Shown here: piece by piece, positions 7,954 to 26,884 of the stretch | How positions within the stretch are numbered: the first letter of the stretch is position 1 | How the letters are laid out: each line of letters begins with the position of its first letter | Assembly (NCBI RefSeq): GCF_019204005.1 | Contig: NZ_JAGSPA010000003.1 | Span: 310,001 to 374,000, forward strand | Direction: 5' to 3' | DNA length: 64,000 nt | Source: Pacificimonas pallii | Lineage (GTDB): Bacteria > Pseudomonadota > Alphaproteobacteria > Sphingomonadales > Sphingomonadaceae | Notes under the pieces: generated by a model | What the model was told of the DNA's origin: nothing | The model's database searches: none | Seen by the model: the letters and a program-made list of their open reading frames with translations, nothing else | Translations under genes and position numbers: made by a program

Positions 7954-8238
7954 GCCTTGCGGAACATCCGGCTGCTTATGGGATGGGACGCGGGAACGCG
8001 GTCACTTGGCACACGACCTTGAGTGGCGGGCACCGCCGCCAAGACTCCCGTAATTTCGGGACAGCCAGCAGATCCGCTTCGCATCCGCGGGATCAGGACT
8101 GTCCCCCGATTGCGGTGCCAGAGCGTAGCCACACTTTCCGGGGGTGAGCCAAGACGGGAACCCTGCCCCCGTCCAACCGCCATCGGATCCTGGCCTTTTC
8201 GCGAACCTACCCCTGGCAATCCCATGCGGATTCGGGAT
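7954..8238. other. Non-coding stretch between the phosphatase gene and tRNA-Met
   Basis: Only short overlapping frames without recognisable domains are present. I see no promoter, repeat or RNA structure that I can name. The tRNA on the minus strand reads into it, so some of it may be tRNA trailer. Confidence 0.4.
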
Positions 8239-8315
8239 TGGTAGCGGAGGAGGGACTCGAACCCCCGACACGTGGATTATGATTCCACTGCTCTAACCAG
8301 CTGAGCTACTCCGCC
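8239..8315 (-). tRNA. tRNA-Met (CAT), elongator type
   Basis: Complete 77-base cloverleaf on the minus strand. The acceptor GGCGGAG pairs with CTCCGCT, followed by A73 and an encoded CCA. The D arm is GCTC..GAGC, the anticodon stem GTGGA/TCCAC encloses the loop ATCATAA with anticodon CAT, and the T arm contains GTTCGAGTC. The first base pair is a G-U type pair rather than the C-A mismatch of initiator tRNA, which favours elongator Met. A CAT anticodon could also be tRNA-Ile2 with modified C34, but the body matches the elongator Met type. Confidence 0.95.
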
Positions 8316-8471
8316 CCATGCTCGGGCGTTGCCACCGAAGGCGCGCGATATAGGCGGCGTTGGCGAAGGGGTCAACGCTTTGCTGACTGGCGGACCGGCC
8401 GGTTTGATTACCCCCATTGATAGCCGCGACGCTCCCGCCTAAGCCGCCAAGCAGTGAGTGGAGGGAACACC

Positions 8472-9476
8472 ATGATCGGCAAATATCTCATCGGGCTTGC
8501 GGCACTGGCCGCGTCCCTCAGCGCGGAGGCACATGACGTGCACGAATGGACATTGGTAATTCACGGCGGCGCGGGCGTTCTGGAACGCTCGCAGATGACA
8601 GCTGAACGTGACGCGGCACAGCGCGCGGCGCTCACCGCAGCGCTGGAAGCAGGGCGGAAAATCCTGCGCGAAGGCGGGACGGCCCTCGACGCCGTGCAGG
8701 CGGCGATCATCATTCTGGAGGACGATCCCGGTTTCAACGCCGGCAAAGGCGCGGTCTTCAACGCCGCCGGTTCCATCGAACTCGACGCCGCCATCATGGA
8801 CGGCAGGACGCGCGATGCCGGTGCGGTCGCCGGCATCACCGCCACGAAAAACCCCATTGAGCTCGCACGCGCGGTCATGGAACAGAGCCCGCACGTCATG
8901 CTGCAAAGCGCCGGCGCGGACGAATTTTCGAAGCAAGTGGGTCTGGAACAGGTCCCCAACAGCTATTTCGAAACCGACGAACGCCGCCAGCAGCTCGAAA
9001 AGATGCGCGCGCGCGCCAAATCGGGGGAAAGCGGCGGTGTCTTCGATGTCGAGGTCAAATTCGGGACGGTCGGCGCCGTCGCCCGTGACCGCGACGGCAA
9101 TCTCGCCGCCGCCACGTCCACCGGCGGCCTGACGGGAAAACGCTTTGGCCGCGTTGGCGACACGCCCATTCTGGGCGCGGGCACCTATGCCGATAATGCG
9201 GGCTGCGCCGTGTCCGCGACCGGGGCCGGGGAATTCTACATCCGCGCCAATGTCGCTGCCGCCATTTGCGCGCGCATGCGCTATTTGAAGGAAGACGTGC
9301 AGGTTGCCGCCGACGCCGTGCAGGCGGACATGAAGTCTCTCGGCGGTTCGGGCGGCGTCATCGCCGTGGCCCCGGACGGCACGCCCGCTTACTCGTTCAA
9401 CACGCCCGGCATGTATCGCGGTATGGCCCTGTCCGACGGCACGCTGTCGACGGGTATCTATGGAGATGAACAGTAG
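8472..9476 (+). CDS. Isoaspartyl peptidase / L-asparaginase, exported Ntn hydrolase
   Basis: Type 2 asparaginase-like N-terminal-nucleophile hydrolase that cleaves isoaspartyl dipeptides and asparagine. Visible features are the N-terminal VIHGGAGV, then GNAGKGAVF-type residues (FNAGKGAVFN), and the autocleavage site FGTVGAV, where Thr becomes the nucleophile of the beta chain, followed by TSTGGLTGKR and GAGTYADN. From the ATG at 8472 there is a signal peptide (GLAALAASLSAEA), so the enzyme is probably periplasmic. GGAGGG at 8459-8464 is a good ribosome site for that ATG; a GTG at 8454 is in frame but lies upstream of it. The gene is single, with the next one 155 bases away. Confidence 0.9.
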   Translation: MIGKYLIGLAALAASLSAEAHDVHEWTLVIHGGAGVLERSQMTAERDAAQRAALTAALEAGRKILREGGTALDAVQAAIIILEDDPGFNAGKGAVFNAAGSIELDAAIMDGRTRDAGAVAGITATKNPIELARAVMEQSPHVMLQSAGADEFSKQVGLEQVPNSYFETDERRQQLEKMRARAKSGESGGVFDVEVKFGTVGAVARDRDGNLAAATSTGGLTGKRFGRVGDTPILGAGTYADNAGCAVSATGAGEFYIRANVAAAICARMRYLKEDVQVAADAVQADMKSLGGSGGVIAVAPDGTPAYSFNTPGMYRGMALSDGTLSTGIYGDEQ

Positions 9477-10570: not shown

Positions 10571-10689
10571 TACCGGTATCTGCGATCGGCGCCCGGCATC
10601 CCGGTCCGGCATGGTTTCCGCGCGGCCTTAATGCTTCCGCAACCGGTTTCGTATATCTGCGGCGAACTGACAGACGTTACTGGAGGTCT

Positions 10690-11382
10690 ATGCCCGCTCC
10701 CGCGCCCCTGAATTCCCGGTGCCGACACGCGCCTGATTTCTGGTCGCTGGTCACGTCGACGCAGGAGTCTGCGCTTGCGGCACGCGCACCTCTGGTGGAC
10801 GTCGCCAATGGGCTGTGCCAGTCGCCAGAGGCGCTGGTCGCGGACACGATCTCCCTGTTCACCGTCCTGCACGGCGAAATGCCCAGCCTGATCGATCTTG
10901 TCGCCAGAAATACCAGCGGCCTGCGGGACGTTCTGGCGCCCGCCGTCGCTGCGTTTGAAAAAGATCGAAAATGGCTGGCGACCCTGTCGCGCGAAACCGG
11001 CGCACGCGTCGACCTCGCGGGGCTGACCGATGCCGAAACGGCAACGCGCGGGTTACGCGAAGCCATGCTGACGCTCGCGGGCTCCAGCCGCAATGGCTGC
11101 ACCACCGGGACGATCCTGGCCTTCCTGACCGAATGGCCGGGCCTCCGTAGCGCGCTCGACCTTGCCGGCACGCTCGCGCTTTCGGCACGCTGGCCAAGCC
11201 TGTCGGCGGAATGGCCGGCGACACCGCTCGCCATGATCACGAAAGTGGCCGAGCCGCTATATGATGACGATGCGACCGCCCGGGCGCTGGCGTTCGGAGC
11301 GCAGCAATTCTCGCTGATCCACGCACAGCTCTTCGATATCGTGCAAACCCGCACCGACGCGCGCAACGCCCGGGACGAATAA
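10690..11382 (+). CDS. Uncharacterised protein
   Basis: Not recognised. The 230-residue product is alpha-helical by composition, rich in Ala and Leu, with no signal peptide, no transmembrane segment and no metal or nucleotide motif. The ATG has a strong ribosome site (TGGAGGT at 10681-10687 region), which argues that the gene is real. It lies 119 bases after the nitronate monooxygenase and 89 before the MoxR ATPase on the same strand, so it could share transcription with either. No function is proposed. Confidence 0.65.
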   Translation: MPAPAPLNSRCRHAPDFWSLVTSTQESALAARAPLVDVANGLCQSPEALVADTISLFTVLHGEMPSLIDLVARNTSGLRDVLAPAVAAFEKDRKWLATLSRETGARVDLAGLTDAETATRGLREAMLTLAGSSRNGCTTGTILAFLTEWPGLRSALDLAGTLALSARWPSLSAEWPATPLAMITKVAEPLYDDDATARALAFGAQQFSLIHAQLFDIVQTRTDARNARDE

Positions 11383-11471
11383 GTCCCTCCCTATTGCTTT
11401 CGTGTGGGTTGAGGCGGCCCCCCGGCTCCCTTAGCTTGCCGGCTCATTCCAGCCACGACCGGGAACACCAT

Positions 11472-12317
11472 ATGCGCTTTGACGGCACCCAGGACTATGT
11501 CGCCACCGATGATCTGAAGATCGCGGTGAATGCCGCCGCCACCCTTCGCCGCCCGCTCCTGATCAAGGGGGAGCCGGGGACCGGCAAGACCGTCCTGGCC
11601 GCCGAGGTCGCCAAGGCCATGGGCGCGCCGCTCATTGAATGGCACATCAAATCCACGACCAAGGCGCAGCAGGGCCTCTACGAATATGACGCCGTCAGCC
11701 GCCTGCGTGACAGCCAGCTTGGCGACGAGCGCGTTCACGATATTTCGAACTACATCAAGCGCGGCAAATTGTGGGAGGCGTTCACGTCCAGGGAAACGCC
11801 GATCCTGCTCGTCGATGAGATCGACAAGGCCGACATCGAGTTCCCGAACGACCTGCTGCAGGAACTCGATCGCATGGAATTCTTCGTCTACGAAACCGGC
11901 GAGACGGTGAAGGCGGTCGAACGCCCGATCATCATCATCACCTCGAATAATGAAAAGGAACTGCCCGACGCGTTCCTGCGCCGCTGTTTCTTCCACTACA
12001 TCAAATTCCCCGACAGGCAGACGATGCGCGACATCATCGACGTCCACTTCCCCAAGATTCAAAAGGAACTGGTGAAGGAAGCCCTCGCCATTTTCTTCGA
12101 CATGCGCGAAGTCCCGGGCCTGAAAAAGAAGCCATCCACCAGCGAACTGCTCGACTGGCTGAAACTCCTTATGCACGAGGACCTGCCCTTAGAGGTCCTC
12201 CAGTCCCGCGACCCCAAAAAACTGATCCCGCCCCTCCACGGCGCGCTTCTCAAGAACGAGCAGGACATCATGCTGTTCGAGAAGCTCGCCTTCATCAATC
12301 GGCGCGAGGGGGGATGA
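11472..12317 (+). CDS. MoxR-type AAA+ ATPase
   Basis: AAA+ chaperone-like ATPase that usually works with a von Willebrand A (VWA) protein to mature enzymes or insert metals. Walker A is GEPGTGKT (33-40), Walker B LLVDEIDKAD (about 117-126), sensor 1 IIITSNNEKELPDAF and the arginine-finger region FLRRCFF follow. The ATG at 11472 begins the conserved MRFDGTQDYV; an upstream TTG at 11394 would add unrelated residues. Its usual partner, the VWA protein, is not adjacent but starts at 14203, with two minus-strand genes in between. Confidence 0.92.
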   Translation: MRFDGTQDYVATDDLKIAVNAAATLRRPLLIKGEPGTGKTVLAAEVAKAMGAPLIEWHIKSTTKAQQGLYEYDAVSRLRDSQLGDERVHDISNYIKRGKLWEAFTSRETPILLVDEIDKADIEFPNDLLQELDRMEFFVYETGETVKAVERPIIIITSNNEKELPDAFLRRCFFHYIKFPDRQTMRDIIDVHFPKIQKELVKEALAIFFDMREVPGLKKKPSTSELLDWLKLLMHEDLPLEVLQSRDPKKLIPPLHGALLKNEQDIMLFEKLAFINRREGG

Positions 12318-15378: not shown

Positions 15379-15896
15379 TGATGAACGTCCGCGCTGCCCG
15401 CGCCGATGAAATCGAGGCCTGCCGGGAAATCCAGCGGCGCTCCGGCGAGGTCTTTCTCGACACGGTCCACGCCCATGTCGCCGATCATGAACCGGACGAG
15501 CCAGCCATTCTGCGCGCTGCGCTGGCGGAAGGCCTGTTATGGGTCGCAGCGGAAGCTGACAACGCGCCCGTCGGTCAGTTAATGGCGACGGCGCGCGCCA
15601 GCGGCCTCGTCATCGCGCAGCTGGACGTTCTTCCCGAACATCACCGCCGGGGCATCGGCCATATGCTTATCGAGGCGGCAGAGGCCGAAGCGCGGCGGCG
15701 CGGCCTTTCGCAGATATGGCTCCGCACATTTCGCGACATTCCCTGGAATGCGCCCTATTATGAACGTCTTGGATTTCAGGCCCTGGATACGCAGGACCCC
15801 GATGCGTTGGATCCGGCGACGGCCGCGCATGAACGCGGCATTGGGCTCGACCCCGCCGGGCGGGTCACGATGCGCAAGAGACTTGTAACGCGCTAG
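15378..15896 (+). CDS. GNAT-family N-acetyltransferase
   Basis: Acetyl-CoA-dependent transferase of 172 residues. The family core is visible: [20 protein letters not shown] is motif A with the acetyl-CoA pyrophosphate loop RRGIG, followed by [16 protein letters not shown] and the motif B segment [13 protein letters not shown]. The ATG at 15378 overlaps the VWA stop (TGATG), and a second ATG follows at 15381. The acceptor substrate is unknown. The stop codon overlaps that of the convergent MCP gene (shared CTAG). Confidence 0.87.
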
Positions 15897-17326
15897 GCCG
15901 GATATCCGACTTCGATATTCCCCCAGCGTCTGCCGCGAAAGACGAGCGGTACGGAAATGGCGATCATCGTCTTTGAAAGTCGCCCTTCGCCAAAATCCAT
16001 CCGATAGGCGCAAATCGTGAAATCATTGTCGTTGCTCGACAGCGCGCGCTTGTCAGTCGCTGTGAAATAAATCCGGCGGTTGCGGCAGTTCTTGCCGTCC
16101 CAGACCGGATCCCCGCGCGGCGTACTGGAATATTTGGTCATGTGCGATGGCAGATATCCGTTCAGATCGCAGCAGCTACAGATCACCAGCTTCTCATGCT
16201 TATCGACAAGCTGGTCGAAAAGAGGGCGCATATGATCGTCCGCAAAGGGGGTGAATTTGGTCGTATACTGTTCAGGGTTGCTGCCAGGCTGAAGCACATA
16301 ATCCGTATCGAAGAGCTCTTCCTCGGTAAGCGTTCCTGCCTGCAGCGCACGCTCGACGACTTCCCGCACCTGATCGCGGCCTTCCGTCGCGATGGCCAGA
16401 AACGATCTGTCCGCGGTTTCGACATTTGTATGGCTAAGGTCGTTGAACATGCCATTCGCCATATCGTCGAGCCTGTCCAGGCGGCCGGATACACCGCTGA
16501 GTTCCTCGCCGTTGCGCCGCGCGTCTGCGGCGAAGTCCGTCAGCGCGCCGTTCACCTGCTCGACCGATGCACTGATCATCTGGGTGCCGCGCGCAATCTC
16601 CTCACTTTGCTCATCAACATTCTGGACCAGAGAGGCAACATCGGCGATCGTATGTTTCAGTTCCGAAAATTCCCGCCGTGTCGCGTCTCCGCGTTTTGTC
16701 CCCTGCTGAACGTCATCGGTAACGCTCTTGGCCTCTTCAGCCAGCGATTCCACCGTACGCGCAATTTCCGTCGTGGCGGCGCGGGTCTCATAAGCCAGCT
16801 TCTTCACTTCCCCCGCAACGACGGCGAACCCGCGCCCGGATTCTCCGGCACGCGCCGCTTCGATTGTCGCGTTCAAGGCCAGCATGTTGGTTTTACTGGC
16901 AATGGCCTCGATGCTGCGCGCTACGTTCTGCACCTGCGCCATGGCCGATGCGAAGCCGTTCATGCGCTCGCCAAGGTCCGTTACAATGTTGATGAGTTCA
17001 TCGACGGAACCGACCGCATTCCTGATCGTGCCCTGCCCGGCCTCCAGTCGCTGCCGCGCCTTTTCGGAAAGATCCCGCGCCTCTCCGGTTGCCAGCGCAA
17101 CGGCGGACTGGTCGCTCTTCAGCGACGCGGTGACCTTCGCAAGTTCGTCCAGCGTACCAAGATGCGTCGCTATCCGCCGCGCGACGTCGGTGACATATAC
17201 TGCAGATTCGCCGCACTCGACAGCGAAAGCGCCGCAGTCGCGCGCGACCTTGCGAACAAGTTCCTGATCGTCATGCTCGAGCCTGTTTTGCACCGTCACT
17301 CCAATCACTCTGTAGTGTCGGTCCAT
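15893..17326 (-). CDS. Soluble methyl-accepting chemotaxis protein with a C-terminal sensor region
   Basis: Chemoreceptor of 477 residues without any transmembrane helix, so cytoplasmic. The signalling hairpin tip is present around residues 138-170 ([33 protein letters not shown]). The sensing part follows the signalling helices: from about 350 a segment contains [29 protein letters not shown] and a final [11 protein letters not shown], resembling the C-terminal domain of certain PAS- or Cache-type soluble receptors. The Cys cluster could bind metal or haem; this is only a guess. It closes the chemotaxis locus, 114 bases after the 95-residue gene. Confidence 0.88.
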
Positions 17327-17440: not shown

Positions 17441-17728
17441 TCAGCCGACGCCGACCGCGCCGCGCAATCGTTCCGCCATATCCGCCAGGGTCACGGATTC
17501 CAGGCTTTGCTCGGGCTCTTCCAGCGTTTTCAGCAAGTCCGCTACGATAAGGAGCATTTGGGTAACCTGATCGATTTTCTGTATGCTGACCAAATGCCTG
17601 CGCAGGGTTTCTTCATCCGCACCCAGATCATAGGCAAGATCGGCGAGCAGGCGCGACGCGATGCCAAGCTCATCCGCCAGAGCCTCCGGCAGCGAAATCG
17701 GCTTTCTGACCAGTTCGACCACACTCAT
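17441..17728 (-). CDS. Uncharacterised 95-residue protein of the chemotaxis locus
   Basis: Not recognised. The protein is predicted helical and acidic, with a patch LRRHLVSIQKIDQVTQMLL that resembles the amphipathic helix of a helical bundle. It has no signal peptide. Its ATG overlaps the stop of the preceding cheB-like gene (ATGA, 17725-17728), so translation is coupled and a role in the chemotaxis pathway is likely. A phosphatase or adaptor helper would fit the place, since no cheZ is seen, but the sequence gives no direct support. Confidence 0.7.
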   Translation of the reverse strand: MSVVELVRKPISLPEALADELGIASRLLADLAYDLGADEETLRRHLVSIQKIDQVTQMLLIVADLLKTLEEPEQSLESVTLADMAERLRGAVGVG

Positions 17729-18723
17729 TTAGAACAGGCTTTCAAGACATTTGATGCGAAATCTTCCTGTGCGACGACTTGCGATGCCATGCCGCGGCTG
17801 AAGCTATAGGTGCCTTGCTCGCCGGGTGAATAGCTATAGCCGCCATTCTTGCGGATCGCCTTGATACCGCCCCCGCCATCCTCGGTTTCGTCCATCAGCA
17901 GGACACCGATCGACTCCTTGCCGGCGGCCTTGGCGGCAGACGCGAACAGCAGGGAAATCGAGGGACGCTCTCCGGCGATGGGATCGCGCGCCATCAGCCT
18001 CAGTTTTCCTTCGGGCCATTTGTCGACGATCAGGTGCTGTTCGCCCTCCGGCGCGAAATAGATGGTGCCCTGTTCAATGGCCATATTGTCCTCGGCCAGC
18101 ACAACCTTCGGTGCGACCTGCTCCGCAAGCTTCTCGACCATGTTTGCCACCAGGCCCGGACCAAGATGCTGGACCACCAACGTGGGAGGGCAGTTGTCGG
18201 GAAAGGTTGCGAACATGTCGAAGAGGGAGGCCGTGCTTGACGCATCGCCGCCAATCGCCAGCAGGCGCCCGTTCCAGTCGATTGGCGTGATGGTGGCAGC
18301 CTCGGTACCGCGCGCCGTCAGTTGCATACCCTTGGCGGATTTGATTCGTTTGCCCAGCTTTGTGATGATCGCGTCGAGTTCCTGCGATGTGGCCACGCGC
18401 GGCTTCGGAAAACAGTCGATCGCACCGAGGCGGAGCGCCTCGATGGAATCGGCTGCCCCTTCTGTTGTCCGCGTGGAGAACATGATGACCGGCATGGGCT
18501 TGGTCTCCATGATCTCGGCCAGATATTCGATGCCGCTCATACCTGGCATCTCGACGTCGAGCGTCATTACGTCGGGATCCAGCGACTCCACCATTTCCTT
18601 TGCTTTTGCCGCACCCTCGGCAAGCCCAACGACCTTCACGTCTGGAATTTGCTCGAGAGCATTTGTGATGAGTGCCCGCATGGTGAGCGAATCATCGACG
18701 ACGAGAACTCTTGTTTGGGTCAC
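17725..18723 (-). CDS. CheB-like response regulator with an altered catalytic site
   Basis: Second CheB homologue of the locus. The receiver domain is intact: D10-D11, the phosphorylation site D56 (TLDVEMPGMSG) and a Lys in CFPKP. In the methylesterase domain the nucleophile loop, canonically IGASTGG, reads IGGDASST (157-164), so the catalytic Ser position holds D160. The His (VQHLGPG, H186) and Asp (DETEDGG, D282) remain, but the TGMGxDG loop is changed to MDETEDG. The protein is probably not an ordinary methylesterase. The start is the GTG at 18723 (GTGACCCAAACA) with AAAGGAT before it; a longer frame to 18783 overlaps cheW. Confidence 0.85.
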   Translation of the reverse strand: MTQTRVLVVDDSLTMRALITNALEQIPDVKVVGLAEGAAKAKEMVESLDPDVMTLDVEMPGMSGIEYLAEIMETKPMPVIMFSTRTTEGAADSIEALRLGAIDCFPKPRVATSQELDAIITKLGKRIKSAKGMQLTARGTEAATITPIDWNGRLLAIGGDASSTASLFDMFATFPDNCPPTLVVQHLGPGLVANMVEKLAEQVAPKVVLAEDNMAIEQGTIYFAPEGEQHLIVDKWPEGKLRLMARDPIAGERPSISLLFASAAKAAGKESIGVLLMDETEDGGGGIKAIRKNGGYSYSPGEQGTYSFSRGMASQVVAQEDFASNVLKACSK

Positions 18724-18748: not shown

Positions 18749-19189
18749 TTACGCTGCGTCGGACAGCGGTACTTGCTCGACAAGGCGGTCGAGGGCGAGG
18801 ATCAGGATCATGCGTTGATCGATGGTCGCCATGCCATCCAGGAAGCGCGAGGCCTCCGCCACGCCCATCTCGGGCACTGGCTGCATGTCCTCCGTCGACA
18901 CGGTCACGATGTCGTTCACCGCATCGACGATAATGCCCTGAAGCTGTTCGCCCATTCGCACGACAATGATCACGTGACGGGCGGACGGGTCGGTAACGCC
19001 CCAGCCGAGCCGCGACCTGAGATCGAGGACCGGAAGCACCACGCCGCGCAAATTCACGACGCCGCGGACATGGGCCGGCACATTGGGTAGCGGTGTGGCG
19101 GGCGACCATGCGCGAATCTCGCGGATTTCCATGATGTCGATCCCCAGAACCTGGTCACCGAGTTGAAAAGTGATGAGCTGACGGGACAT
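18749..19189 (-). CDS. cheW: CheW coupling protein
   Basis: Adaptor linking receptors to CheA. The SH3-like CheW fold is recognisable from LITFQLGDQVLGIDIMEIRE, PNVPAHVRGVVNLRG (about 35-50), VLPVLDLRSRLG and GIIVDAVNDIV. From the ATG at 19189 it is 146 residues with GAGGAG 9 bases upstream. An in-frame ATG at 19213 lies one base after the cheY stop but has no ribosome site. It sits between cheY and the altered cheB in the minus-strand chain. Confidence 0.93.
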   Translation of the reverse strand: MSRQLITFQLGDQVLGIDIMEIREIRAWSPATPLPNVPAHVRGVVNLRGVVLPVLDLRSRLGWGVTDPSARHVIIVVRMGEQLQGIIVDAVNDIVTVSTEDMQPVPEMGVAEASRFLDGMATIDQRMILILALDRLVEQVPLSDAA

Positions 19190-19214
19190 AGCGGAAGTCT
19201 CCTCGATGGACATG

Positions 19215-19577
19215 TTAATGGAGTACGCGGCGAATGGCCGCCGCGAGTTTTTCGGGATTGAACGGTTTCACGATCCAGCCCGTCGCCCCGGCTTCACGCG
19301 CGCGCTGTTTCTTTTCGTCAGAGCTTTCCGTGGTCAGGACGAGAATGGGCAGGTTGCGCCGACCCTGACTACGGACGTTCTCGATCAGACCGAAGCCATC
19401 CATGCGCGGCATGTTGATGTCGGTGATGAGAAGGTCTGGCTCTGTCCCGCCGAGGGTTTCGAGCGCATGCACGCCGTCCTCGGCCTCGACAACGCTGTAG
19501 CCAAGATCGGTAAGCGAAACGCGCAGCAGCATCCGCATGCTGGGCGAGTCGTCTACAGTCAGAATTGTCTTCGACAT
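19215..19577 (-). CDS. cheY: CheY-type single-domain response regulator
   Basis: Receiver-only protein (120 residues) that carries the phosphoryl signal from CheA. It shows TVDDSPSMRM with the acidic pair, the acceptor D in LLITDINMPRMDG, T in LTTESS and K in IVKPFNPEKL. The ATG at 19577 begins the conserved MSKTILTVDD and is preceded by GGAG. A longer frame starts at 19610, overlapping the cheD stop (TGATG), and also has a plausible ribosome site, so the start is not certain. Confidence 0.93.
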   Translation of the reverse strand: MSKTILTVDDSPSMRMLLRVSLTDLGYSVVEAEDGVHALETLGGTEPDLLITDINMPRMDGFGLIENVRSQGRRNLPILVLTTESSDEKKQRAREAGATGWIVKPFNPEKLAAAIRRVLH

Positions 19578-19609
19578 TGGTAAAGGCTCCCTCGGTGCAA
19601 TATCGGTCA

Positions 19610-20161
19610 TCAGAAGAACTCCACATCGCCGTGGGTGTCAGCAACAGGCGTTGGCCTCGGCGCGATGACGGCGGGTGCGATCGTTGTATTTGCCACGGTG
19701 CGGCATCGTGCGAGCCCTAGGGCCGGACGGAACTCGACGCGGCGTGCCGCCGTCCCTCCCGTATCTTCCCCCACAAGAGGAATGCGCTCGTTGCGAAGAA
19801 AATTATGGGCAAACGCAATATTGTCATTGCCAATGTCGCCGAACGCGCTCCGCATCGTCGCGCCGCCGAAAATCCGTGCCTTCAGGTTGCGCCGGGATGC
19901 GCCCATGGCAAACATGGCGTTGATCAGCACTTCCATCGCGTAAACGCCGTAGCGTTTCAGGGACGTCTCGTCGGTCGCCTTGCCCCGCGCGAGGAGGTAG
20001 TGGTTAATCCCACCCACGCGCGCAACCGGATCATAGAAGCAGGCCGCGATGCAGCTGCCCAGAACCGTTGTCAGAATCAGGTCTTCTTCGTTGCTGACCT
20101 GCGAATCGCCCTGGGCGACGGTCAGTCGGCGCAAGCCGTCCCGGCGTGATCCATCGCTCAT
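19610..20161 (-). CDS. cheD: CheD chemoreceptor glutamine deamidase
   Basis: Deamidates receptor glutamines to glutamates and can influence CheC-type phosphatases. The catalytic Cys is C37 in TTVLGSCIAAC and the His is H54 in GGINHYLL, with the family segment YGVYAMEVLINAM and KARIFGGATM downstream. It has a Pro/Arg-rich C-terminal tail (APAVIAPRPTPVAD). The ATG at 20161 overlaps the cheB stop (ATGA). It is 183 residues, normal for the family. Confidence 0.92.
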   Translation of the reverse strand: MSDGSRRDGLRRLTVAQGDSQVSNEEDLILTTVLGSCIAACFYDPVARVGGINHYLLARGKATDETSLKRYGVYAMEVLINAMFAMGASRRNLKARIFGGATMRSAFGDIGNDNIAFAHNFLRNERIPLVGEDTGGTAARRVEFRPALGLARCRTVANTTIAPAVIAPRPTPVADTHGDVEFF

Positions 20162-21198
20162 GCCGCGCACTCCTTCAGAAGGCGCCGTGCGATCCCGCGC
20201 AGGGGCGATTGTTCAGCGACGGCACCTATCTGAAAGGCGGCCGCCGGCATTCCGTAAACCACGCTCGTGGCTTCATCCTGACCGACGGTAAAGGCCCCTT
20301 GCTCACGCATCGCCTTCATGCCTTCGGCCCCGTCTTCTCCCATTCCCGTCAGGATCGCGCCAACGGCGTCTTCGCCGGCGACGCGGGCAACCGTGTGAAA
20401 CAGCCGATCGACGGAGGGCCGGTGGCCCTTGACCTTCTCGGCGGCAACCAGGCGGCAGTAACGGCGTCCACGTCCACCGCCAATTTCCAGATGTTGCTTG
20501 CCGCCGGGCGCCAGAAAGACCTTGCCGGGTTCCAGTATCGCGCCCGGACGCGCCTCCTGCACATGCGGCGCCGACAGCCTGTCAAGGCGGGCGGCAAAAC
20601 TGGACGTGAAGTTCGCCGACATGTGCTGGACGATGACCGTCGGCGGGCAGTTGGCGGGGAAATCGCTCAACAGCGCGATCAGCGCCTCTACACCGCCCGT
20701 CGATGCGCCGACCGCGATCAGGCTATTGGCGCGCGGTATATAGGTGGGCACTCGGCGAATACGTGCGGCAGCACCCGCGGACGGCGTTTTCAGCCATTTC
20801 ATCTTGGCGGCGGCACGCACAAGGTCCGCCAGCGCGGCATCTCCGTGCCCGTGTGTTCGCTGGTGGATTTTCAGCCGCTTCTTGTCGAAACAGTCAAACG
20901 CGCCCAGCTCCAGCGCGGCCACCGTCACGTCCGCGCCGCGCGCCGTGTGCGAGGATACCATCACGACCGGCGTCGGACGCAGCCGCATGAGCCGCTCCAG
21001 GAAATCGAGTCCGGACATGCCGGGCATTTCGATATCGAGCGTTACGACATCGGGGTCGAATTCCTTGATCTTCGCCCGCGCCTCGTCACCGTCGCTGGCC
21101 ATGCCGACGACTTCGATCTCCGGGTCATCCGCGAGTTCACGTGCGATGATGGCCTGCATCGACCTTGAATCGTCGACGATAAGTGTGCGTACCGTCAT
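20158..21198 (-). CDS. cheB: CheB protein-glutamate methylesterase, canonical
   Basis: Removes receptor methyl groups and deamidates glutamines after phosphorylation by CheA. The receiver domain has D9-D10, the acceptor D55 (TLDIEMPGMSG) and a K in CFDKK. The C-terminal esterase keeps the full triad: S166 in VGASTGG, H192 in VQHMSANF and D288 in TGMGEDGAEG. It overlaps cheR upstream and cheD downstream by ATGA. This is the working copy; compare the altered paralogue at 17725-18723. Confidence 0.94.
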   Translation of the reverse strand: MTVRTLIVDDSRSMQAIIARELADDPEIEVVGMASDGDEARAKIKEFDPDVVTLDIEMPGMSGLDFLERLMRLRPTPVVMVSSHTARGADVTVAALELGAFDCFDKKRLKIHQRTHGHGDAALADLVRAAAKMKWLKTPSAGAAARIRRVPTYIPRANSLIAVGASTGGVEALIALLSDFPANCPPTVIVQHMSANFTSSFAARLDRLSAPHVQEARPGAILEPGKVFLAPGGKQHLEIGGGRGRRYCRLVAAEKVKGHRPSVDRLFHTVARVAGEDAVGAILTGMGEDGAEGMKAMREQGAFTVGQDEATSVVYGMPAAAFQIGAVAEQSPLRGIARRLLKECAA

Positions 21199-22058
21199 GC
21201 CGCCACCTTCTGATAGGATGTCCGGCCGATACAGCGGAAGCGGTCTTCCAGACTAGGCGCCAGCCTTTCGGAATGTCCGATGTAGAGCATGCCGCCAACT
21301 TCCAGCGCATCCGCCAGCCGGGTCTGCAATTTCGTCTTCGTCGGCTGATCGAAATAAATCATGACGTTGCGACAGAAGATCGTGTCGAATTTGCCCTTCA
21401 TCGGCCACTTGCCGAGCAGGTTCAGCGACCGGAAGGAAATGGCGTCGCGAAGGACAGGGTCGACTTGAAGAACACCGTCCTTTTCCTGGATCCACGACGA
21501 GCGGAGCGGTCTGGGGACCTTGCTCAGTGTCTCCTCGGAATAGCAGGCCCGCTTGGCCGCAGCCAGGATTTCGCTGGAAATGTCGGTGGCAAGGACGCGA
21601 AAATCTTTCCGCAGCAATTTGCTCGCGGCGGTGCGATCCGCACCGAGCGCCGACATGAGCCAGGTATAGGGTTCTTCACCGGATGAGCAGGCGGCAGACC
21701 ACAGGCGTACGCGGCCACCATTGTTAAGACGTTCTACAAGGCCGGGCCAGATCCGTTCGGAGAAGTCCTCGAAATGATGGCTTTCCCGAAAGAAGCTCGT
21801 GTGATTGGTCGTCAGGGAATCAATCATGCGCTTGCGTTCGCGCTCATCCCGGCCGATCAGTTCAATATATTCCGAAATGGTCGCCAGATTGCAGGCGCGG
21901 ACGCGCGGCGCCAACCGGCGATACACAAGCTGCGCCTTCTCGGCGGGCAGCAGGATGCCAACCTCGTCATATACCATCGTTGAGATTGCGCGATGATCTT
22001 CGGCGCGATAGCCGAACTCTCGCTCGCGCGGGGCGGATGTCATTGCAAGTGCGGTCAT
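21195..22058 (-). CDS. cheR: CheR chemoreceptor methyltransferase
   Basis: SAM-dependent methylation of receptor glutamates. It has the N-terminal helical domain, LTTNHTSFFRESHHF, the SAM motif LWSAACSSGEEPYT (about 118-131), TDISSEIL and FDTIFCRNVMIYFD (about 222-235). The length of 287 is typical. The ATG overlaps the cheA stop (ATGA, 22055-22058) and the gene's own stop overlaps cheB. The mcp at 24718 ends in DWSEF, a likely CheR-docking tail. Confidence 0.94.
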   Translation of the reverse strand: MTALAMTSAPREREFGYRAEDHRAISTMVYDEVGILLPAEKAQLVYRRLAPRVRACNLATISEYIELIGRDERERKRMIDSLTTNHTSFFRESHHFEDFSERIWPGLVERLNNGGRVRLWSAACSSGEEPYTWLMSALGADRTAASKLLRKDFRVLATDISSEILAAAKRACYSEETLSKVPRPLRSSWIQEKDGVLQVDPVLRDAISFRSLNLLGKWPMKGKFDTIFCRNVMIYFDQPTKTKLQTRLADALEVGGMLYIGHSERLAPSLEDRFRCIGRTSYQKVAA

Positions 22059-24391
22059 GCGGCTTCTGCCAGAGTTGCCCGCGCACCGTTCCGGCGGTTC
22101 GCGGTAAGGGTTTCCACATCGACGATCAGCGCCACCTGGCCGTCGCCCAGAATGGTCGCGCCGGCTACGCCCTCAATGGCCTGATAGTTCGCTTCGAGGC
22201 TTTTCACGACGACCTGTCGCTGGTCCTGAATGGCGTCGACAAGCAGGGCTGCCTGGCCCTGATCACCGTCGACCACGATCAGCACGCCCCGCGCCGGATT
22301 GCGTTCAGCCTTGGCGATGCCAAGATGATCGGCGATCGGCAGGACGGGCACATAGGCGCCGCGGACGTCGAGTAATATTCCGTCATTGCCAACGCGCTTC
22401 AGCATGTCTTCCGTCGGCCGGAGACTCTCAATGATATGATTGAGCGGTATCACAAAGGTTTCCGCGCCGACGGTAACGATCATGCCGTCAAGCACCGCCA
22501 GCGTCAGCGGCAGGCTGAGTGAAAAGCTCGATCCCTCGCCGTGACGCGACTGGATACCGATGCGGCCGCCAAGTGCCTGAATGTTCTTGCGCACGACGTC
22601 CATGCCGACCCCGCGGCCGGATACGTTCGACACCGTGCCCGCGGTCGAAAAGCCGGGCGCGAAGATAAGATTGTCGATCTCCTCATCGCTCAGCGTGGCA
22701 TCGGGCATGATGATTTCCCGTTCGACGGCCTTTTCCCGTACCCGGGCGCGATTAATGCCTCTGCCATCATCGGTGACGGTAATCACGATGCGGCCTGACT
22801 GATGCGCCGCGGTCAGCCGGACGATGCCTTCCTCCGCCTTTCCGGCGGCCAGACGCTCTTCCGGTGTCTCCAGACCGTGATCGACGGCGTTACGGATAAG
22901 GTGCGTCAGCGGCTCTCCCAGGCGTTCGACCACGGTCTTGTCGACTTCGGTCATCTCGCCTTCCATCTCCAGGCGAACGCGCTTGCCGGTCTCGCTTTCC
23001 AGTTCGCGCACAATGCGCGGGACCCTGCTGAAAACCACCTTCATCGGCTGCGCGCGGATCGCCATCGTCGATTCCTGCAGCTCACGGGTCAGATGTTCCA
23101 GGTCGTTAACCTCGGAATTGTCTTCCAGTTGATGCCGCGACATGCGCTGGGCGAGCATCGACTGCGTAATCACCAGTTCGCCGACCAGGTTGACGAGGCG
23201 ATCGAGCTTGTCGAGGTCGACGCGAATGGTCTGCGCCACGACGGACGCCGCAGGCTTCGGCTTGGCCGGGGCTGCCGGTGCCGCCGGGGCCGGCGGCGCG
23301 ACATTCTTGACCGGAGCCGGGGTCGCCTTCTCCGCCTGGGGAGCGGCGGCGGGCGGGGCTGGGGTGGCTGCCGCCTGGGGGACGGCGGCGGGAGCGGGCG
23401 AAACGCTATCTTTCTCGGGCGCGGCAGGTTCGGCGGCGGCCGCTGGAGAACTGACGGGCTTGGGTGCCTCCGAACTCTCCGCGGGAGCCGCCTTTTTAAG
23501 CGGCGCACCCGCACTCGCCCGTTCCAACGTGACTTCGCAGTCCACGGTGAATTCATATATGGCGCGAATGTCTTCCTCAGCGACGTCCCCCGGTACCGTC
23601 AGCGCATAGGTGAAATACGCGCATTCCGCGTCCATGTCGTCAAGTGAGGGCAGAGCGGCGCGGTCGCACTCATCGACCACCGCGCCAAGGGCAACCAGTT
23701 CGCGGACCAGGAGCAGGGGTTCGGCGGCGTTCTGAAACGCATTTGCGACCGGGTGGTAAACCAGTTTCCAGTCCGGCGGACTATCGTCTGTCGATGTCGC
23801 CGCGTCTTCCGGCGCTGACACGTCGGAAGGCGCCTTGGCCTCATTGTCGGCGTCATTGTCAGCGTCGCCCTCATCGAGCATGCCCATGAGGTCGTCATAA
23901 TCGTCGCCCGAAGCCTCCGAGCCCGCCGTATCGCCGGATACCTCCTCCTGTTCCTCTGGCGCAGGAGCGGTCTCCGCCGGTGCTGGCGTTTCCTCCACGG
24001 CGGCCGCGGACGCATCCCCTTCCGCAGCGGACAGAAGCTTCTCGAGCATCGCTTCATCCGCTGGTGTTTCACTCCCGTCGCGTGCGGCAGCGACATGATC
24101 GGTAAGCATGTCAAATGCCCCGATCACCACGTCGAGCAGATCTGGCGTCAGCTCGAGCGAGCCATTGCGGATCAGGTCGAGAAGCGTTTCATATTGGTGT
24201 GTATAGGCCTGTAGGGCTTCATATCCGAACGCGCCCGCACCGCCCTTGATCGAGTGAACGCAGCGGAATACGCTGTTGATCGTCTCCGGGTCCTGGTCGC
24301 CATCGCGCAGGGTTGCGAAATTGACCTCCATACCGGCAAGGCCTTCTTCGCACTCCTGAAAGAATATCTGCTGAATTTCATCGACGTCCAT
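22055..24391 (-). CDS. cheA: CheA chemotaxis histidine kinase
   Basis: Central kinase of the locus. The domains in order are an Hpt domain with H46 in RCVHSIKGGAGAFGY; an acidic linker (about 130-200); a P2-like segment (about 205-290); a long Ala/Pro linker (about 300-390); dimerisation helices (LDKLDRLVNLVGELVITQSM); the ATPase with N box HLIRNAVDHGLE, G1 DDGRGI and G2 GRGVGMDV; and a C-terminal CheW-like domain. The length of 778 is slightly long for the family because of the linker. The next gene, cheR, overlaps its stop. Confidence 0.95.
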   Translation of the reverse strand: MDVDEIQQIFFQECEEGLAGMEVNFATLRDGDQDPETINSVFRCVHSIKGGAGAFGYEALQAYTHQYETLLDLIRNGSLELTPDLLDVVIGAFDMLTDHVAAARDGSETPADEAMLEKLLSAAEGDASAAAVEETPAPAETAPAPEEQEEVSGDTAGSEASGDDYDDLMGMLDEGDADNDADNEAKAPSDVSAPEDAATSTDDSPPDWKLVYHPVANAFQNAAEPLLLVRELVALGAVVDECDRAALPSLDDMDAECAYFTYALTVPGDVAEEDIRAIYEFTVDCEVTLERASAGAPLKKAAPAESSEAPKPVSSPAAAAEPAAPEKDSVSPAPAAVPQAAATPAPPAAAPQAEKATPAPVKNVAPPAPAAPAAPAKPKPAASVVAQTIRVDLDKLDRLVNLVGELVITQSMLAQRMSRHQLEDNSEVNDLEHLTRELQESTMAIRAQPMKVVFSRVPRIVRELESETGKRVRLEMEGEMTEVDKTVVERLGEPLTHLIRNAVDHGLETPEERLAAGKAEEGIVRLTAAHQSGRIVITVTDDGRGINRARVREKAVEREIIMPDATLSDEEIDNLIFAPGFSTAGTVSNVSGRGVGMDVVRKNIQALGGRIGIQSRHGEGSSFSLSLPLTLAVLDGMIVTVGAETFVIPLNHIIESLRPTEDMLKRVGNDGILLDVRGAYVPVLPIADHLGIAKAERNPARGVLIVVDGDQGQAALLVDAIQDQRQVVVKSLEANYQAIEGVAGATILGDGQVALIVDVETLTANRRNGARATLAEAA

Positions 24392-24407: not shown

Positions 24408-24671
24408 TCAAGCTTTGAGGAGCGTGTCGAGACCCACGAGCCTCGTCATCTCGGTAAGTGCGGCACTGGGGTTCAGAATGCGGAAGTCCAGACTTGCGCT
24501 ATAGGCGGCGGCCTCCGCCGCAGCGAGCACCTGCAGACATGCCTGTCCGACACTTTCAACCGCGCTGCCATCCAGTGCCAGCGGCTGCTGGTCGGTGACC
24601 GATTTGCGAAGCGCGGCACGCAGCGGCGCGGCGGCCGTCGTGTCGAGGACAGTGTCAAGGGCTAACGTCAT
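24408..24671 (-). CDS. STAS-domain protein of the chemotaxis locus
   Basis: Small (87 residues) anti-sigma-factor-antagonist-like domain. The pattern LDTVLDTTAAAPLRAAL, LALDGSAVESVGQACLQVL and TEMTRLVGLDTLL matches STAS proteins; the Ser in DGSAVESVGQ stands where the phospho-acceptor lies in SpoIIAA-type proteins. The ATG at 24671 has GGAG 8 bases before it. It lies between the mcp and cheA, with gaps of 46 and 16 bases. STAS genes occur in several chemotaxis operons and their role there is unclear. Confidence 0.82.
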   Translation of the reverse strand: MTLALDTVLDTTAAAPLRAALRKSVTDQQPLALDGSAVESVGQACLQVLAAAEAAAYSASLDFRILNPSAALTEMTRLVGLDTLLKA

Positions 24672-24717
24672 GATAAAACTCCAGTGCCTTGGATGGGGAA
24701 GATGGGGCATGCGCCGG

Positions 24718-26202
24718 TCAGAATTCCGACCAGTCATCCTCCACGTCAGCGACTGCCACGGCAGCGCCCCCTCCCCCCGCGCCCTGACGGCGACTGTTCA
24801 TCGCGATCTCGCGGCCTGCCTTGGCGGCATGCGCCTGTAGACGATGGACTTCTGTTTTCTGCGGCGGTGCTTCAGCCTTTTGCGGCGGGGCCGTAAGCTT
24901 CTGCGGCGGTGCCTTCGGTTCCACCCCGCCGCCCAGCTTGAAGCGCGCGATCTGTTTGGCGAGGTCGGCCGCCTCGTCGGCCAGGCTGCGCGCGGCGGCG
25001 GTCGCCTCTTCGACCATCGCGGCATTTTGCTGAGTGACGCCGTCCATCTCGTTGACGGCGGTGTTGACCTGCTGCAGGCCCGTGGACTGCTGGTCGGCCG
25101 ACGCGGCGATCGTTCCGACCACGGTGCTGATCTCACCGATCCGCTCGATGATCCTTTGCAGCGCCTTTCCGGTCTCGCTGACCAGACCCACGCCCGTCTC
25201 GACCTGTTCAGTCGACGCCATGATCTTCGATTTCACGTCCTTCGCGGCATCGGCGGAACGCTGCGCCAGGGCTCTGACTTCCGATGCCACCACGGCGAAG
25301 CCCTTACCGGCGTCACCAGCGCGCGCCGCCTCGACCCCCGCGTTCAAAGCCAGAAGGTTCGTCTGGAAGGCGATGCCGTCAATGACGGCGATGATCTCGC
25401 CGATCTCGGCGGACGATCGTTCGATTCCATGCATCGCTTCCACCGCGCGGCTGACGACTTCGCCCGACTGTTCGGCCTCGCTGCGGGTTTCGGTAACTAC
25501 CTTGTTCGCGCGATTGGCGCCGCTTGCCGTTTCACGGACAGTGCCGGTGATCTCGTCCATTGCCGCAGCGGTCTGTTCAAGGCTGGCGGCCTGCTGTTCG
25601 GTCCGCAGTGACAGATCATCGGAGGCCTGGCGGATATCATTGGCACCGCTGCTGATGCCGTTCGTCGATTCACGGACGGCCTTGAGGACTTCACTCACGG
25701 CGTCCATCGCACGATTATAGTCGACGCGCAGCCGCTCATAATCAGCGGAGAAGGGCTCCTCGATACGGAAGCTGACATCGCTGGTCGCAAGCTTGGAAAG
25801 GCCGGTACCAAGCGCAGCGACAGCGCGTGCCTGAAGGGCCGCGGATTCCTGTAAGGCGAGACCATTTTCGCGGAATACCGTCATCGCTTTCGTCATGCGT
25901 CCGACGCAATCCGAAAATTCGGTATGAATAATCGGCGTTTTATAGTCGCCATTCGCCAGCGCCTCCATGCGGACGACGGTTCCGACATAGGGATCGCAGA
26001 TCATCTTCTTCGATGCGACACCGACCAGGACGGTCGTGATCAGCGCCAATGCCGCGCCGCCAATCAGCAGCGCGGGTGAGCCCGTTCCCGCCACCGCGAG
26101 CCACGTCGTGATGAGCGATACAGTCGCCAGCGTTGAATATGTCGCTCCCAGCACATCAAATTTACGACGAATAGGCGCATGGGCGCGAAACCAGTTGATC
26201 AT
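24718..26202 (-). CDS. Methyl-accepting chemotaxis protein with a C-terminal docking pentapeptide
   Basis: Membrane-linked receptor of 494 residues. Two hydrophobic segments lie near residues 22-68, without a large periplasmic loop. They are followed by a HAMP-like region (VVRMEALANGDYKTPI) and the signalling hairpin (GIAFQTNLLALNAGVEAARA, GFAVVASEVRALAQR). The C terminus has PPQK repeats and ends DDWSEF, an xWxxF tail like those that tether CheR and CheB. The ATG at 26202 has AGGGGAT before it; a longer frame to 26262 is not needed. It is the first gene of the locus. Confidence 0.92.
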   Translation of the reverse strand: MINWFRAHAPIRRKFDVLGATYSTLATVSLITTWLAVAGTGSPALLIGGAALALITTVLVGVASKKMICDPYVGTVVRMEALANGDYKTPIIHTEFSDCVGRMTKAMTVFRENGLALQESAALQARAVAALGTGLSKLATSDVSFRIEEPFSADYERLRVDYNRAMDAVSEVLKAVRESTNGISSGANDIRQASDDLSLRTEQQAASLEQTAAAMDEITGTVRETASGANRANKVVTETRSEAEQSGEVVSRAVEAMHGIERSSAEIGEIIAVIDGIAFQTNLLALNAGVEAARAGDAGKGFAVVASEVRALAQRSADAAKDVKSKIMASTEQVETGVGLVSETGKALQRIIERIGEISTVVGTIAASADQQSTGLQQVNTAVNEMDGVTQQNAAMVEEATAAARSLADEAADLAKQIARFKLGGGVEPKAPPQKLTAPPQKAEAPPQKTEVHRLQAHAAKAGREIAMNSRRQGAGGGGAAVAVADVEDDWSEF

Positions 26203-26884
26203 GAAGCTATCCCCTAAATCCATTCGATCGACCGCGCCCGCCTCCTGGTTGCGTACGAGCATCGATCGATGATGTAGGTAGATAAAAATCTATAATGGAC
26301 CATTAATGATCAGTTTGATTTCCATTATGGACCGGATATTTACAGGTCCTAAGGTTTCATCCGGCGCTCCAGATGACGAACCGCAGTGGCGTTCCCGCCT
26401 TGCTGACGGGGCTTATGTATATGAAAAATTTCAATAAACGAATTTTCGAATCCTGGCGGCGGCATGGCGGCGAAGACGCGCGCCGAATTGCGCGTGACGT
26501 CATGCGGCCATCACGCACCGGCCCTGCAATCCCGCCCGCATTCCGCCCCCAGCGAGAAGGGTAAGGGACGAGGGTAAGGACAGGGCACTTACTCACCAAA
26601 CCGCTGCACAAATTACGAAATTAAAATCGTATCAATCACGAATAAACACACAGAAACAGATCTTTTTCAAGAAAATATCCAGGAAATATGCAGGTATCAC
26701 GTGTACTCATATTACGTTTCTTTATCATAACGAAATATGAGATCCCGCGCAGAGACCAGTTCAGGCCCGCGCGGCGGATTTCGCCGACGAAGGGGCACGT
26801 GCGGAGAAGGCTGCCACATTGCGCACCGGGTGCGCCCGTCACTCGGCCGTCCCGGCCTCGCCGCCGCTTACACGAATATCCGCT
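26203..26884. other. 682-base intergenic region upstream of the chemotaxis locus
   Basis: No gene is supportable here: the short minus-strand frame at 26636-26842 has no domain and no ribosome site. It must hold the promoter of the minus-strand chemotaxis locus. Operator-like words occur at 26292-26333. The part around 26620-26750 is AT-rich compared with its surroundings. Confidence 0.5.
26292..26333. promoter_or_regulatory. Possible operator upstream of the chemotaxis locus
   Basis: TAATGGACCATTA at 26294-26306 is a perfect 13-base palindrome around its central A. A related word, ATTATGGACC, recurs at 26324-26333, exactly 32 bases from ATAATGGACC at 26292, close to three helical turns. It lies about 90-130 bases upstream of the mcp start. 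The regulator is not known. Confidence 0.35.

Follow-up and report, generated by a model that had tools for sequence, protein, structure and literature searches.

CheB2, encoded within a 64,000-nucleotide stretch of the Pacificimonas pallii genome (the window), is almost certainly a conserved pseudoenzyme. Judged from its sequence and those of its relatives, it would represent an old duplicate of the chemotaxis methylesterase CheB, located within the family's main che operon, with a receiver domain that CheA should be able to phosphorylate and a methylesterase/deamidase chemistry that appears to be permanently lost. The first-pass annotation took CheB2 for a lone odd paralogue of the canonical CheB (termed CheB1). 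Instead it is a member of an old, family-wide clade, of which 67 distinct orthologous sequences (termed B2) were collected. Table 1 lists the features of the locus.

Table 1. Features of the che locus in the window (positions are those of the window).
Feature	Position	Strand	Remarks
Second MCP-signal protein, downstream of the CheT-like gene	15893..17326	-	no obvious membrane segment by eye
Small open reading frame, CheT-like	17441..17728	-	95 aa; 4-bp (ATGA) overlap with cheB2 stop; DxxxQ motif
cheB2 (pseudo-CheB), receiver + CheB methylesterase domain predicted to be catalytically dead	17725..18723	-	332 aa, GTG start
D282 codon GAT, catalytic Asp position	17878..17880	-	kept in 66/67 orthologues
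H186 codon CAT, catalytic His position	18166..18168	-	kept here, lost in 54/67 orthologues
D160 codon GAT, catalytic Ser position	18244..18246	-	alignment
D56 codon, receiver phospho-acceptor Asp	18556..18558	-	invariant in 67 orthologues
cheW	18749..19213	-	PF01584
cheY, single receiver domain	19215..19610	-	PF00072
cheD	19610..20170	-	PF03975
cheB1, canonical CheB with S166, H192, D289	20158..21198	-	Pfam, NF001965, alignment
cheR	21195..22058	-	PF01739, PF03705
cheA	22055..24391	-	Hpt, H-kinase_dim, HATPase_c and CheW domains
STAS-domain protein, CheS-like by position	24408..24737	-	domain match
MCP	24718..26262	-	PF00015; C-terminus DDWSEF

The cheB2 reading frame begins with the GTG at 18723, in agreement with the starts of its orthologues, and ends with a TGA stop. 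The translated sequence displays an N-terminal receiver (PF00072, 76.9 bits) with its phosphorylation residues and a C-terminal CheB domain (PF01339, CheB_methylest, 92.7 bits with a cut-off of 24; canonical CheB scores 199.2). With the NCBIfam CheB model NF001965 (curated cut-off 293), canonical CheB is above the cut-off (390.5 bits) and CheB2 is below it (240.6 bits). CheB2 thus shares with CheB the domain order, the receiver residues, the predicted fold and a location in the che operon, but it differs in the NF001965 score, in the Ser-His-Asp triad, where the catalytic Ser is replaced by Asp, and in the loss of the TGMG loop. An AlphaFold2 model of CheB2, based on 47 sequences, has a mean pLDDT of 90 and a pTM of 0.86, and the PDB entry that it matches best is that of full-length CheB (6ymz, TM 0.88). 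The fold is predicted to be intact, with the proviso that the model may merely inherit the CheB fold from homologues.

An alignment with the solved CheB structures 6ymz and 1a2o is ungapped around the active site. It places D160 opposite the catalytic Ser, with no Ser at the nucleophile position, and H186 and D282 opposite the catalytic His and Asp. This confirms the replacement proposed from the window alone, and the reading of the TGMGxDG loop as MDETEDG also holds. The catalytic cleft has diverged, as have the TGMG and YGMP loops. For canonical CheB, S166 and H192 were correctly assigned; the third residue of its triad, however, is D289 and not D288.

A shift of the nucleophile to S162 or S163 (in DASST) was considered and rejected. 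The ungapped alignment leaves no room for it, the model has a strand at positions 154–160 followed by a helix at 161–172, so that residue 160 takes the place of the Ser, and in close orthologues position 160 stays acidic whereas 162–163 are variable. Among named relatives, the closest (Sphingomonas sp. Leaf32, S. endophytica and Sphingomonas sp. 8AM) likewise have Asp at the equivalent of position 160. This rules out a sequencing error or chance, as does the occurrence of Ser and His together in 0 of 67 B2 sequences and in all 38 of the canonical partners examined (termed B1), where the catalytic Asp is kept as well.

The triad is broken in each of the 67 B2 sequences, in one of two ways. In a branch of 15 that includes the window (the acidic branch), Ser is changed to Asp (13 sequences) or Glu (2), and His is kept in 13, the other two having Gln or Asn. 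The remaining 52 have all lost His, mostly to Gln, with Arg, Pro, Ala, Asp and others also found; 37 of these still have the Ser. The catalytic Asp is retained in all B2 sequences except one, that of Sphingomonas beigongshangi (locus L107, positions 7989–9038), which shows an apparent frame shift near its C-terminus that makes this region unreadable. Apart from this possible frame shift, the B2 reading frames are open and full-length in the orthologues examined.

The receiver is the constant part of the protein. The phosphorylation residues D10, D11, D56, S83 and K107 are identical in 67/67 B2, which bears out the earlier opinion that this domain looks functional. Two further receiver residues, E70 and P106, are found in 50/50 B2 and are rare in B1. 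The suggestion that CheB2 senses phosphorylation and does not hydrolyse methyl esters is therefore strongly supported by the invariant receiver together with the universally broken triad. One B1 sequence (L089, genome G038, positions 10679–11707) combines an intact esterase with a degraded receiver, which reads ENS, lacks the matching Ser and is changed at the Lys position. The B2 of the same genome has an intact receiver and a dead esterase, and the two may represent a complementary split of CheB functions.

In a tree of 96 CheB sequences, B2 forms one side of a branch with an SH-aLRT support of 100. It is divided into the acidic branch (support 100) and the rest (support 96). The relationships within B1 and within B2 broadly agree. 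The simplest reading, by parsimony, would be one duplication before these genera split, followed by loss of Ser in one branch and loss of His in the other. B2 thus appears to have been inactivated at least two times independently.

Over 703 genome pairs, the mean identity is 0.64 for the B2 receiver and 0.42 for the B2 effector domain, compared with 0.62 and 0.56 for the B1 receiver and effector. In all 703 pairs the receiver is the better conserved of the two B2 domains. Nevertheless, purifying selection is seen in both B2 domains. The dN/dS values of the effector in close pairs, obtained by a simple counting method, are 0.12 (G001/G209), 0.11 (G322/G365) and 0.19 (G001/G314). The low identity and low dN/dS together indicate that the effector was remodelled but is not neutral. 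As the effector is kept under purifying selection despite at least two inactivations, CheB2 is a conserved pseudo-CheB and not a pseudogene.

B2 was sought in 400 genomes of the family, in 250 genomes from the order and in the GTDB genome collection. All 67 distinct sequences fall within the Sphingomonadaceae, and Sphingomonas, Novosphingobium and Chakrabartia are among the named carriers. In the profile search across the order (250 genomes), members of other families gave only scores typical of ordinary CheB/B1; the few extra-family loci of B1-like score that were inspected have both Ser and His. CheB sequences of other families and phyla from the GTDB collection scan likewise display canonical Ser and His motifs. 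Among the 400 family genomes, B2 is absent from three other genomes of the genus of the window, and its distribution is therefore patchy.

B1 and B2 are found in one locus in 38 genomes. In 26 of these (the window and 25 relatives) B2 is on the same strand, 1412–1583 bp downstream of B1, and the order is MCP-STAS-cheA-cheR-cheB1-cheD-cheY-cheW-cheB2 followed by a CheT-like open reading frame; in one genome cheY and cheD have changed places. In the other 12, which include Novosphingobium-like loci, B2 is nearby on the opposite strand. B2 is unlinked to B1 in some genomes. In one genus (g33; loci L071, L074, L076, L077, L079 and L081) a cheY-cheB2-cheT-like trio is found with no cheA, cheR, cheB1 or cheW in the neighbourhood. 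In another (g25; L061, L063, L064 and L060) the neighbours of cheB2 and a CheT-like open reading frame are a globin-like MCP and a divergent CheA, and the canonical CheB of the same genome lies elsewhere.

The 95-aa open reading frame that overlaps the end of cheB2 has the invariant residues D53 and Q57, i.e. the DxxxQ motif of the CheZ/CheT phosphatases. It is predicted to form a helical hairpin (pTM 0.56), and a fold search with this model gave no significant PDB match. As a small helical DxxxQ protein at the end of a che operon it resembles CheT, and it is a candidate CheT/CheZ-like phosphatase. Related DxxxQ open reading frames were found in che clusters across the Alphaproteobacteria. A role as a B2-specific partner was rejected, since CheT-like open reading frames also follow che clusters that are without B2; it is thus a component of the operon and not a dedicated partner.

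Several other properties of the genome are of interest. The C-terminus of the operon MCP, DDWSEF, resembles the C-terminal pentapeptide that tethers CheR/CheB. The genome also encodes a second CheA. The possibility that the organism is without flagella was ruled out by the presence of FlhA, in addition to which there is a second, partial FHIPEP-like match. FliM was not found in this genome with Pfam PF02154; FliM scores are weak in several related genomes, which may point to a highly divergent switch protein.

How CheB2 acts is less certain than the loss of its chemistry. The favoured reading, which is given about an even chance, is that it acts by way of its receiver, as a competitor for CheA docking and phosphoryl groups, a phosphate sink or a relay. 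CheA would phosphorylate the receiver, and CheB2 would vie with CheY and CheB1 both to dock on CheA and to obtain phosphoryl groups. Acting as a sink for phosphate or as an intermediate in phosphotransfer, and perhaps returning phosphoryl groups to CheA, it would set the amounts of CheY~P and CheB1~P. The effector domain, although dead, may have been retained to serve the receiver as a folded lid or a binding module, tuning its lifetime and partners.

This role is favoured because the receiver is constant while the catalytic cleft was lost in lineage-specific ways, a pattern that phosphotransfer fits at least as well as regulation or sequestration of CheB1. An intact receiver encoded together with its cognate CheA is also what a phosphate-sink regulator of the CheY1 type displays. 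That B2 follows cheW in most relatives and has a candidate phosphatase next to it is in accordance with this role. On the other hand, were the receiver all that matters, loss of the effector would be expected somewhere, yet the orthologues examined have it at full length (L107, with its possible frame shift, aside). In addition, some B2 are remote from cheA or have a divergent CheA as neighbour, and a CheY and a candidate CheT-like phosphatase are present in the operon anyway, the latter also where B2 is not.

There are precedents for the favoured role. CheY1 of Sinorhizobium meliloti is a phosphate sink (PMC2924250). CheB2 of Rhodobacter sphaeroides has been proposed, by modelling from measured kinetics, to relay phosphoryl groups between kinases (PMC2924250). 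It is chemically the same role as proposed here; the R. sphaeroides protein is an active methylesterase, and its authors note that this activity confounds a direct test of phosphorelay (PMC2924250), whereas CheB2 of the window is predicted to be dead. The S. meliloti CheY1/CheS/CheT system is likewise alphaproteobacterial, its operon includes STAS and DxxxQ proteins, and it has a receiver in addition to the motor CheY (PMC2924250, PMC12654446). There, CheT is a DXXXQ phosphatase and CheS is a STAS protein that helps CheA to distinguish two CheYs (2025 review, PMC12654446). CheY1 is a lone receiver domain, while the extra receiver here carries a dead CheB domain.

CheV, a CheW-receiver fusion, similarly has a phosphorylatable receiver on a non-enzymatic chemotaxis domain; the partner domain is CheW in CheV and a dead esterase in CheB2.

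A possible but rather doubtful alternative, which develops the earlier idea of a sequestering partner, is that CheB2 is a binding antagonist. Phosphorylated CheB2 would open as CheB does and occupy the receptor methylation helices, the pentapeptides, CheD, CheR or CheB1, so that methyl groups are shielded or the true CheB is sequestered, both without catalysis. In its favour, the effector keeps its predicted fold under purifying selection, retains the catalytic Asp position almost throughout and has gained W150 and G152 at its start, which are fixed in B2 but rare in B1; the pentapeptide-like end of the operon MCP also fits. The cleft and its TGMG and YGMP loops have diverged, however, the effector is the faster-evolving half of B2, and B2 is not always linked to B1.

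It is unlikely that CheB2~P has a separate output, i.e. that a re-purposed CheB fold binds some other target, such as the motor, a second kinase or another pathway. The persistence of the g33 trio apart from cheA, cheR, cheB and cheW, the unusual surroundings of B2 in g25 and the second CheA in the genome of the window are consistent with this, but B2 is usually inside a complete che operon, after cheW.

A change of chemistry confined to the acidic branch is very improbable. Here Asp-His-Asp would be the triad of a working hydrolase with an Asp nucleophile, and if this were true a CheB would have been turned into a different hydrolase controlled by a chemotaxis receiver. The acidic residue in 15/15 members and the His in 13/15 agree with it, but two members have Gln or Asn in place of His, the TGMG loop is lost, and the sister branch is entirely without His. 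That B2 is a decaying pseudogene without function, as loss of the active site and a fast-evolving effector could suggest, is hardly credible and already contradicted by the open, full-length frames (the possible L107 frame shift aside), the invariant receiver site, purifying selection in both domains and conserved synteny.

A search of the open-access literature yielded no description of an inactive or degenerate CheB clade. CheB has a double role, demethylation of receptors and the drawing of phosphoryl groups from CheA, and the two are hard to separate. The B2 clade represents a natural separation-of-function variant beside an active CheB, selected through the diversification of the family, and through it the non-catalytic role of CheB can be tested. 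Annotation pipelines are likely to miscall B2 proteins as methylesterases, and thus to inflate the counts of CheB in the Sphingomonadaceae.
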